Positions 12,654-22,651 of a stretch of DNA of 64,000 nt are shown here, in pieces. The stretch's first letter is position 1, and the number at the start of each line of letters is the position of its first letter. A program made the translations under genes and the position numbers. This DNA is from Candidatus Saccharimonadota bacterium (GTDB taxonomy: Bacteria; Patescibacteriota; Saccharimonadia; Saccharimonadales; Saccharimonadaceae). Below the pieces are notes generated by a model. The model saw only the letters and a list, made by a program, of their open reading frames with translations, ran no database searches and was not told the DNA's origin. The stretch covers positions 62,001 to 126,000 of the forward strand of contig JAFWNB010000002.1 in the NCBI GenBank assembly GCA_017545505.1. Reading direction: 5' to 3'.

Positions 12654-13091
12654 TTATCTTGCGTAAGCTATATTATGTTCCATCGCCTGGGTTTCTAAGG
12701 CTGCCAATCTTTCAGCATCATCAACTGCCGAATTTACACTATGCTTTACGCGTGCAGCTTCTTCAGCCTTTTTTGCATCATTCCAGCGGTCTAGGGTCCC
12801 GACTAAATATCCAGTAATTCGGCGCAATCTTTCAAATTTACCCTCTTCGAACCATTCGGCGTGATCATTAAAATATTCTTTCATAGCCTTATCGCCAGCT
12901 TTTTTGCCAATCAGTTTCATCCCGGCCTCAACTAAGCAAGATACATGCATGTCTTCATATTGATCGTATTCCGCTAACACCTCTTTCGCTTCTTTTTCGG
13001 ATACTTTAGCATATTTTGATAAGGATTTTACAAATCTTTTAATATCGAAATTTTCAATTTCATTCGGATTCTTATATATTATTTTCTTCAT
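12654..13091 (-). CDS. Small protein with NrdD C-terminal-like (glycyl radical type) motif
   Basis: A 145-residue protein. Its segment near residues 90-118 (RRITGYLVGTLDRWNDAKK then ARVKH) lines up with the extreme C-terminus of class III anaerobic ribonucleotide reductase. There R-V-x-G-Y-L carries the radical glycine and is followed by N-x-GK, E and RVKH. The zinc-binding cysteines that normally precede this tail are absent and the rest of the enzyme is missing. The N-terminal 85 residues are helical with no recognised motif. The promoter contains two NrdR-like boxes, supporting a link to ribonucleotide reduction. It could be a spare radical domain, an inactive remnant or an unrelated protein. 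Confidence 0.6.
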   Translation of the reverse strand: MKKIIYKNPNEIENFDIKRFVKSLSKYAKVSEKEAKEVLAEYDQYEDMHVSCLVEAGMKLIGKKAGDKAMKEYFNDHAEWFEEGKFERLRRITGYLVGTLDRWNDAKKAEEAARVKHSVNSAVDDAERLAALETQAMEHNIAYAR

Positions 13092-13173
13092 GGTTTCCTT
13101 TCTCTGAAGCGTTCAAAATAAATCTGAAAACAGCTTCTTTTGTTTATTTAAGCATTACCTAAACTCATTATAA

Positions 13174-13222
13174 ACCCTATATATAGTGGCTGTCAACACT
13201 TTTTTAACACTAAATGTGGTGT
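13174..13222 (-). promoter_or_regulatory. Paired NrdR-like boxes over a promoter
   Basis: Read on the minus strand, ACACCACATTTAGTGT and CCACTATATATAGGGT are two 16-base imperfect palindromes close to the NrdR box consensus. Their starts are 33 bp apart, about three helical turns. They surround TTGACA, and a TATAAT-like box lies just beyond the second box. This places the operator over the promoter of the NrdD-tail-like gene. An nrdR gene is present at 21.9 kb. Confidence 0.65.
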
Positions 13223-13898: not shown

Positions 13899-14747
13899 AT
13901 GCCGGAACTTCCAGAAGTAGAAACTATAAGAAGAGGACTAAATCAATTTATTTTGAATAAAAAAATAAAAAAGATTACAACTCTTTGTGAAAAATCTTTT
14001 GTTGGTACGCCATCTATCGGAAAAGTCAAAGCTATTAGGCGTTTTGGTAAAGCTCTAGTTTTAGATTTGGATAATCAAAAATCTCTTATGATTCATCTGC
14101 GTATGACTGGTCAATTAATATACGATGGAAAAGAACGCTATGCGGCAGGACATCCCAGCGATAATTTTATTGCTATCCTTCCTAATAAGCAAACGAGAGT
14201 TATTATTGAATTTGAGGATGGAAGACTATTCTTTAACGACCAGAGAAAATTTGGTTTTATTAAAGTAATAAAAACCAACGATGTTGCAGAGGAGTCTTTT
14301 ATTAAAAAACTCGCCCACGAGCCTTGGGAAATGACTGTAACGGAGCTGTATGAAAAGTTTCAACGTCATCGCAATTCATTGATAAAAGCGACCATTTTAG
14401 ACCAATCTATTATTTGTGGACTTGGTAATATTTATGCCGACGAGGCGCTTTTTGCCTCCAAAATACATCCAGAAAGAAAAGCCGGCAGCTTGTCAAAACA
14501 AGAAACCGAAGCCTTACTTACTGCTGCGTGCGAGGTAATGCAAAAATCTATCGATTCGGGCGGTTCCACTATGGCAACCTATGTTAAAGCGGACGGGTCA
14601 AAGGGCGATTATCTTGAAAAATTTGCCCAAGTTTTTCGCCGGGAGGGAAAACCATGTCCAAGATGCGGTGAACAAATAATCAAAATTAGAGTCGCCGGCC
14701 GTGGTACTCATATTTGTCCGCGATGTCAAAAGAAGGGAACAAAATGA
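13899..14747 (+). CDS. mutM: Formamidopyrimidine-DNA glycosylase (Fpg/MutM)
   Basis: A bifunctional glycosylase/AP lyase that removes 8-oxoguanine and related lesions. The N-terminus MPELPEVETIRRGL supplies the catalytic proline. HLRMTGQL and the helix-two-turn-helix (SIICGLGNIYADEALF) follow, and the C-terminal zinc finger has four cysteines in CPRCG and CPRCQ. Length is 282, normal for Fpg. The intact zinc finger contrasts with the cysteine-less DnaG and NrdR in the same window. The stop overlaps the start of the holA-like gene by four bases (ATGA). Confidence 0.97.
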   Translation: MPELPEVETIRRGLNQFILNKKIKKITTLCEKSFVGTPSIGKVKAIRRFGKALVLDLDNQKSLMIHLRMTGQLIYDGKERYAAGHPSDNFIAILPNKQTRVIIEFEDGRLFFNDQRKFGFIKVIKTNDVAEESFIKKLAHEPWEMTVTELYEKFQRHRNSLIKATILDQSIICGLGNIYADEALFASKIHPERKAGSLSKQETEALLTAACEVMQKSIDSGGSTMATYVKADGSKGDYLEKFAQVFRREGKPCPRCGEQIIKIRVAGRGTHICPRCQKKGTK

Positions 14748-20776: not shown

Positions 20777-21928
20777 ATGCCAGAAGTTAAACCAACAGAG
20801 GTGGAAAGTAAAGCAAGTATTAAAGTCGTAGGCGTAGGTGGCGCCGGTGGTTCTGCAGTAGAGCGCATGAAAGAAGTGGGTCTTTCTGGCGTAGAATTTG
20901 TAGCAATTAATACCGATGCCCAAGCTCTTCATCATTCACCAGCCGATGTCAAAGTACATATCGGTAAAGGTCTTGGTGCTGGCGGCGATCCAGAAAAGGG
21001 CCGCGAAGCCGCCGAAGAAGGTCGTGAAGCCATCGACAAAGCCCTAGACGGCGCTGACATGGTGTTTATTACATTAGGAGCCGGCGGTGGCACTGGTTCG
21101 GGCGCAGGTCCTATCGTCGCAGAAGAAGCTCGCAAAAAAGATATTTTAACTGTAGGTGTTGCCACCAAACCATTTACCTTTGAAGGTGCTCGTCGTAAAG
21201 CTAACGCAGATGTCGCAATAGAAAAACTTGCTCGTCAAGTAGATGCTTTAATTACTATTCCAAACGATCGTCTTCTTCAAACTATAGATCCTCGTACCCC
21301 ACTTCTTGAGACTTTCAAAATTGCTGACGATGTACTCCGCCAGGGTGTCCAAGGTATTTCCGAATTAATCACCGAACATTCTTTGATTAATCTAGACTTT
21401 GCCGATGTTAAAGCTATCATGAAAAACGCCGGCTCAGCTCTTATGGGCATTGGCCGTGCTAGTGGTGAAAACCGCGCTGTTATTGCTGCTCAACAAGCTG
21501 TAGAATCCCCACTTATCGAAGTAAAAATTGAAGGAGCACGCGGTGTACTCTTTAGCGTTGCTGGTGGCTATGACATGTCAATGAGCGAGGTTCAAGAAGC
21601 TGCTGAAGTTATCACAGGCGCCGTTTCACCAGATGCTAATATCATCTTCGGTGCTTCTATCCGCCCAGATTTAGAAGATGAAATAATTGTTACAGTTGTG
21701 GCTACGGGTTTTGACTCAGATTATTATAACGAAGAACCAAACCTCAAGCCAGAATTAGATTTTAAAGACGAAAAACCAGAAGCTGAAGCTAAAGATTTTG
21801 CTGCTGAAAGCAAATCCAATATGTGGGATTCCATTAAAAACGATCCAGAACCAGAGCCAGAACCGGATGATGACGAGATGGATGTACCACCTTCCTTAAG
21901 AGAAAGGTTTAAGAAAAAGAAAAAATAA
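20777..21928 (+). CDS. ftsZ: Cell division protein FtsZ
   Basis: A tubulin-like GTPase that forms the division ring. The GTP-binding tubulin signature is GAGGGTGSGAGP and the early glycine loop is GVGGAGGSAVERM. The T7 catalytic loop region reads NLDFADVKAIMKNAG. The acidic linker ends in the conserved tail DVPPSLRERFKKKKK, which would bind FtsA. Length is 383. A promoter-like TATACT lies upstream and AGCGAGG precedes the ATG. Confidence 0.98.
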   Translation: MPEVKPTEVESKASIKVVGVGGAGGSAVERMKEVGLSGVEFVAINTDAQALHHSPADVKVHIGKGLGAGGDPEKGREAAEEGREAIDKALDGADMVFITLGAGGGTGSGAGPIVAEEARKKDILTVGVATKPFTFEGARRKANADVAIEKLARQVDALITIPNDRLLQTIDPRTPLLETFKIADDVLRQGVQGISELITEHSLINLDFADVKAIMKNAGSALMGIGRASGENRAVIAAQQAVESPLIEVKIEGARGVLFSVAGGYDMSMSEVQEAAEVITGAVSPDANIIFGASIRPDLEDEIIVTVVATGFDSDYYNEEPNLKPELDFKDEKPEAEAKDFAAESKSNMWDSIKNDPEPEPEPDDDEMDVPPSLRERFKKKKK

Positions 21929-21943
21929 ACGGAGGCTACGCGG

Positions 21944-22393
21944 ATGGAGAGAAAGTTTAGAATTGGCGACAGCAAAGTTCTAGAAAGCCGCGAGACCGTT
22001 GATGGCACTATGATTCGTCGCCGGCGTGAATCCAGCGACGGTCACCGTTTTACTACTTATGAACGCATCGAAATGCCACCTCTCACTGTATTAAAACGCA
22101 GTGGCAACAAAGAAATATTTGATCGCGACAAACTACTTCTTGCTGTTCGCCGTAGTGTAGGTAAGTTTTTCAATTCTGAACTAGAGGTTGAAGAAGTAGT
22201 CAATAAAGCATCCGATATTTTATATAGCTATGGCACGGATGAAATTACTTCCAAACAAATTGGTGAGGCGGTATTAGACGTTTTGGCAGAAGTGAACGAA
22301 GTAGCATACGTTCGTTTTGCTAGCGTGTTTCGTGAATTCAAAACCCTGGAGGATTTTGAAAACATTCTAAAGGAACAAAAAAGGAAAAGATAA
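21944..22393 (+). CDS. nrdR: Transcriptional repressor NrdR with cysteine-less N-terminal domain
   Basis: NrdR represses ribonucleotide reductase genes and senses dATP/ATP through an ATP-cone. The ATP-cone is clear (PPLTVLKRSGNKEIFDRDKL, later VNEVAYVRFASVFREF). The N-terminal part keeps VLESRETVDGTMIRRRRES and RFTTYE, which match NrdR. The four zinc cysteines of the usual CPxC and CxxC are replaced: MERKFRIGD and SSDGHR. Length is 149 residues. It follows ftsZ by 15 bases, so it probably shares that transcript. Confidence 0.92.
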   Translation: MERKFRIGDSKVLESRETVDGTMIRRRRESSDGHRFTTYERIEMPPLTVLKRSGNKEIFDRDKLLLAVRRSVGKFFNSELEVEEVVNKASDILYSYGTDEITSKQIGEAVLDVLAEVNEVAYVRFASVFREFKTLEDFENILKEQKRKR

Positions 22394-22396
22394 TCC

Positions 22397-22651
22397 ATGC
22401 GGGTGGTGTGTATTTTTAGGGACAATCAAGATTATTCAAGAACCGTTACTGAATGGCTTGAAAATTTTCGCCGTCAGACCGGCCGAGAAATAGAAATCAT
22501 GAATCCAGACGAAAACTCTAGTTTTTGTGAAACATATGATATAGTGGAATATCCCACCATTTTGGCTCTCGGTAACAATGGCGAAGTACGCGCCTCCTGG
22601 CGTGGCCGCGACCTCCCATTGATAAACGAAGTTTTGTATTATACAATTTAA
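22397..22651 (+). CDS. Thioredoxin-fold small protein without CxxC
   Basis: An 84-residue protein whose layout (MRVVCIFRDNQDYSRTV, then YDIVEYPTILAL, then GEVRASWRG) fits a thioredoxin fold. The cis-proline YPT is present. Where CxxC should be there is RDNQDY, so it cannot act as a dithiol reductase. It starts three bases after nrdR and ends two bases before mscS. A non-redox or partner-binding role is likely. Confidence 0.6.
   Translation: MRVVCIFRDNQDYSRTVTEWLENFRRQTGREIEIMNPDENSSFCETYDIVEYPTILALGNNGEVRASWRGRDLPLINEVLYYTI

Follow-up and report, generated by a model that had tools for sequence, protein, structure and literature searches.

The nrdR locus and its product

The window analysed here is a stretch of 64,000 nucleotides from the genome (707 kb, 94% complete) of a Nanosyncoccus-like member of Saccharibacteria that carries a single NrdR. 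The gene occupies positions 21944..22393 of the plus strand and begins 15 bp downstream of ftsZ (20777..21928, plus strand). Its translation is a protein of 149 amino acids that starts with MERKFRIGDSKVLESRETVDGTMIRRRRESSDGHRFTTYE and contains no cysteine at any position. The Zn_ribbon_NrdR family of Pfam matches this open reading frame with 39.4 bits (cutoff 27.2), and an ATP-cone domain (PF03477; 58.4 bits, cutoff 25.8, E 1e-15) covers residues 48-134 (22085..22345, plus strand). Against the NCBIfam equivalog TIGR00244 the protein scores 121.8 bits and misses the cutoff of 124.65 by about 3 bits; this cutoff is passed by its congeners G011, G016 and G032. The protein can be aligned to the solved NrdRs of S. 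coelicolor (7p37/7p3f) and E. coli (9fvr/9fxk), with which it shares the domain order, the RRRR strand, the other contact arginines and the ATP-cone.

In the tree, the protein stands inside the NrdRs of its family. The ftsZ-nrdR gene order is also found in cysteine-containing relatives, where the class II gene nrdJ follows nrdR, and this ftsZ-linked position is that of the orthologous NrdRs. On sequence grounds the protein is an NrdR by orthology, domains and operators, and its missing zinc site departs from a defining feature of the family. In the place that nrdJ takes in the cysteine-containing relatives, directly 3' of nrdR, there is an 84-aa thioredoxin-like open reading frame (22397-22651, plus strand) with a weak Pfam match (E 0.05).

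Loss and replacement of the zinc ligands

The ribbon domain (residues 1-42; 21944..22069, plus strand) lacks the two CxxC motifs that make up the one-zinc site of NrdR, and these are missing across a whole clade. The N-terminal start of the cysteine-less NrdR reads MERKFRIGDSKVLESRETVDGTMIRRRRESSDGHRFTTYERIE. In the window protein C3 is replaced by Glu2, C6 by Phe5, C31 by Ser30 and C34 by Gly33. Among the 42 aligned cysteine-less sequences the C3 position is variable, that of C6 is mostly Tyr, Phe, Ile or Leu, that of C31 (residue 30) is Ser or Thr in 39, and that of C34 is Gly in all. Ile7 (41/42) and Asp32 (40/42) are novel in the clade. Where known NrdRs have their four zinc cysteines, the cysteine-less form carries a replacement specific to its clade, consisting of IGDS and a [ST]xDG turn, and it has glutamate at the position of D15. 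This specificity residue is Glu14 in the window NrdR. Glutamate is found here throughout the sampled order, including cysteine-containing members that have NrdR boxes, so that the D15 substitution is not part of the zinc-site change.

DNA-contact residues were assigned after two structural papers (PMC12176259, PMC9110341); those of E. coli NrdR are R17, R26, R28 and R37 (PMC12176259). Arg16, Arg25-28 (the RRRR strand) and Arg35 are invariant in the 42 cysteine-less sequences. A sequence-only reading of this DNA, which was right about the open reading frame, its coordinates and the complete absence of cysteine, had held that the Arg-rich strand and the ATP-cone were retained, and the invariance of Arg25-28 and the strong PF03477 match bear this out.

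It could be argued that the metal is still held, by Asp9, Asp32, Ser/Thr30 and His34, and the near invariance of Asp9 and Asp32 in the clade agrees with such substitute ligands. However, Asp or Glu is already common at the position of Asp9 in cysteine-containing relatives, residue 34 may be Lys, Arg or His, the C3 position varies and that of C6 is hydrophobic, so that the clade has no conserved set of four ligands. We regard this explanation as very improbable. From the absent ligands we infer that the metal has been lost.

Within the family, one clade supplied 124 NrdRs, and every one of them lacks the zinc cysteines (one has a stray cysteine elsewhere). A further 55 of the sequences read have all four, and CxxC...CxxC is kept in 11 genera of the same family and in those other families of the order from which NrdRs were read. 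Outside the family no zinc-free NrdR was found among 66 NrdRs, mostly from other Patescibacteria families; all 66 have the four cysteines, and this sample gives no sign that zinc-free NrdRs are widespread in Patescibacteria. The sequence-only reading had proposed that an alignment across Patescibacteria would date the loss. The loss could indeed be placed on one branch; in the genomes sampled it is not a trait of Patescibacteria at large but belongs to one clade in a single Saccharimonadales family.

The same reading had warned that intact cysteines in close relatives would suggest an error of sequencing or assembly. Such relatives were looked for, and none appeared: all congeners read lack the zinc cysteines, as do the 80 most closely related loci of other assemblies, and intact cysteines occur only in more distant genera of the family and outside it. 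The genome is a draft of several contigs, as are those of most of its relatives, which are metagenome-assembled; under these circumstances one might suspect faulty sequencing or assembly, or a pseudogene in decay. However, about 124 sequences drawn from many assemblies show the same change; their frames are open and they have a single conserved replacement motif, and the change is shared by the named genome of Candidatus Nanosyncoccus alces (L069). The many cysteine-less loci, the open frames and the single-branch tree rule out both error and pseudogene, to which we attach a negligible probability. Genome-wide avoidance of zinc was also considered; it is unsupported because other cysteine motifs are kept in the genome, namely the CxxC...CxxC finger of a formamidopyrimidine-DNA glycosylase-like protein (window 13899-14747, identified by eye) and the C-terminal cysteine motifs of NrdD.

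When a tree was built from ATP-cone plus FtsZ, with the ribbon columns left out, the 42 cysteine-less sequences formed one clade and required one change (SH-aLRT 95); the tree came from a quick search, and several of its inner branches are unresolved. The sequence comparisons support a single, old loss of the zinc site, ancestral to a large clade of Saccharimonadales. In that clade the mean pairwise identity of the ribbon (residues 8-41) is 0.78 versus 0.60 for the cone; the corresponding values in cysteine-containing groups are 0.71-0.74 and 0.63-0.65. As judged from these identities, the cysteine-less ribbon has not decayed and is under purifying selection, being more conserved than the ATP-cone.

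An AlphaFold2 model built from an alignment of cysteine-less sequences only has a mean pLDDT of 89.5, and its three ribbon strands (11-17, 23-29 and 35-41) are predicted at about 90-92. A cysteine-containing control model shows the same ribbon strands, and the best solved structural matches of the predicted model are NrdR chains (7p37, Z 15.3). In modelling terms, the cysteine-less sequence is compatible with the NrdR fold; a model built on an alignment of homologues is no proof of stability without zinc. The claim of the sequence-only reading that the metal was lost with the fold kept, and not by truncation, fits the single old loss, the conserved replacement motif and the higher conservation of the ribbon over the cone, and also the confident three-stranded ribbon of the model and the operators kept at ribonucleotide reductase (RNR) genes.

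NrdR boxes and the genes that they precede

The matrix used for NrdR boxes was trained on the loci of cysteine-containing relatives alone. In these, paired 16-bp boxes (consensus ACGCTATATATAGCGT) lie upstream of nrdR-nrdJ with centres mostly 32-33 bp apart. In the cysteine-less clade nrdJ is gone from the nrdR locus, and the RNR genes present elsewhere are nrdA with nrdB (class I) or nrdD with nrdG (class III). With this matrix, box pairs appear upstream of every such nrdA or nrdD gene tested (33/33), and each pair scores above all 200 dinucleotide shuffles. Their spacers of 16-17 bp fall inside the range of 14-17 bp described for the boxes bound by the NrdRs of four studied species (PMC12051234). 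Operator sequence and spacing, as well as the RNR gene targets, are like those of known NrdR.

The genome of the window has exactly two box pairs, even with one mismatch allowed, and a reversed control pattern had no occurrence in any genome searched. One pair is just upstream of nrdD. The other precedes a small gene on the minus strand of the window (12654..13091), a predicted NrdR target encoding a 145-aa protein with the glycyl-radical tail of NrdD (RRITGYLVGTLDRWNDAKK; PF13597 positions 532-562, E 2.9e-7; P. copri NrdD tail, E 4.4e-5). Its promoter-proximal box (13174..13189, minus strand) lies inside the -35/-10 spacer of a sigma-70-like promoter sequence, TTGACA-N18-TATAAT (13167..13196, minus strand), and the distal box (13207..13222, minus strand) has its centre 33 bp away, which corresponds to a 17-bp spacer. 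A box pair precedes the small gene in 11/11 copies from this and related genomes. One relative (G003, L258; G003:C2:283114-283156) has a third perfect pair, with no recognisable nucleotide or RNR gene beside it. A single genome, G362 (98% complete), has nrdD, lacks nrdR and yielded no boxes. G372, G386 and G295 were scored without nrdR yet have boxes, and they probably miss the gene through incomplete assembly.

The boxes might be read by another protein, the ribbon having lost its capacity to bind DNA and NrdR surviving as an ATP/dATP-sensing partner, for instance bound to RNR. The loss of the family-defining ligands is in line with such a role, as is a zinc-bearing NrdR-like paralogue (VWRRRxC..C; L181-L189) present in many Saccharimonadales, including some cysteine-less genera. 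This paralogue has the same ribbon and cone layout and keeps its cysteines in 7/8 aligned sequences; it differs from the cysteine-less NrdR in being a separate gene with mostly kept cysteines and in being missing from the genus of the window, where its profile has just one full-length match, the cysteine-less NrdR itself. In a genus that has box pairs and no zinc-bearing paralogue, the cysteine-less NrdR is thus the only known candidate reader. The greater conservation of the ribbon and its DNA-contact arginines relative to the cone also argues against a ribbon that no longer binds DNA, and we consider this alternative unlikely. As a separate observation, the paralogue (L181-L189, VWRRR motif) has as its neighbour in Saccharimonadales a large, conserved gene of opposite orientation, and in a separate loss three of the four zinc cysteines have gone from the G276 copy (L186:998-1441; MICINSPNEP...GLKSGV).

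The genus members searched yielded class III RNR only and no large subunit of class I or class II, so that dNTP synthesis looks strictly anaerobic. An orphan NrdR left behind after the loss of all RNRs was considered at this point and dropped once nrdD was found. A change of RNR class is not sufficient as the cause of the cysteine loss, because class III is likewise the sole RNR class of the cysteine-containing G239, G286 and G356. The NrdD of the window's genome (nrdD at L234:3461-5659) stops short, at position 529 of the 562 in the profile, and lacks the glycyl-radical tail; tail-less nrdD is also present in G001, G003, G009 and G020. Some relatives have a complete NrdD together with the small glycyl-radical gene, and the gene content suggests that this gene may have begun as a spare and come to be needed only later. 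Compared with the ATP-cone, the N-terminal part of the small protein gives an hhalign value of 17.6%. We favour, with some reservation, a reading in which the metal-independent NrdR controls a class III RNR of two polypeptides, a tail-less catalytic NrdD and a small protein that would provide the glycyl radical in trans, with their genes lying under the genome's only two NrdR operators.

A probable metal-free NrdR and its implications

With considerable confidence, the sequence evidence can be read as an NrdR orthologue whose ribbon was converted once to a metal-free form and which would still act on NrdR boxes as an ATP/dATP-controlled repressor of RNR genes. Tight turns would have taken the place of both zinc knuckles, along with a small hydrophobic core built with an aromatic or aliphatic residue at C6, Ile7, Ser or Thr at C31 and Asp-Gly at the C34 knuckle, and the three-stranded sheet, the RRRR strand and the ATP-cone would have been retained through the conversion. 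A tetramer would sit over the promoters on two NrdR boxes separated by about three helical turns, and its targets in this genome would be class III nrdD(-nrdG) and the separate glycyl-radical tail gene. Since the control sites by the RNR genes are still in place, the cysteine-less NrdR very probably works without metal; DNA binding, repression and tetramer assembly by this protein are presumed.

A precedent is offered by domains D8/D9 of E. coli topoisomerase I (Topo_Zn_Ribbon, PF08272), which are zinc-ribbon-like, have lost their cysteines and keep DNA binding (PMC9369019). In both cases a zinc ribbon seems to have turned metal-free, nucleic acid binding being preserved in the topoisomerase and predicted for NrdR. 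However, D8/D9 belong to another protein, bind single-stranded DNA, form a tandem repeat beside intact zinc ribbons and are not a sequence-specific repressor. Recent structural papers describe NrdR as a zinc-ribbon repressor (PMC9110341, PMC12176259). In the open literature searched, no report of a zinc-free NrdR or of a Saccharibacteria NrdR was found.

NrdR is the standard regulator of the supply of DNA building blocks, and the Saccharibacteria clade consists of tiny host-dependent bacteria. If binding without metal is true, the clade would be a natural experiment on the residues that replace a structural zinc while the operator stays unchanged, and a sequence-specific DNA-binding domain would be a setting in which structural zinc can be replaced. 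The two operators also mark out, in the reduced genomes of host-dependent bacteria, a regulon open to testing, and they single out an apparently split class III RNR.
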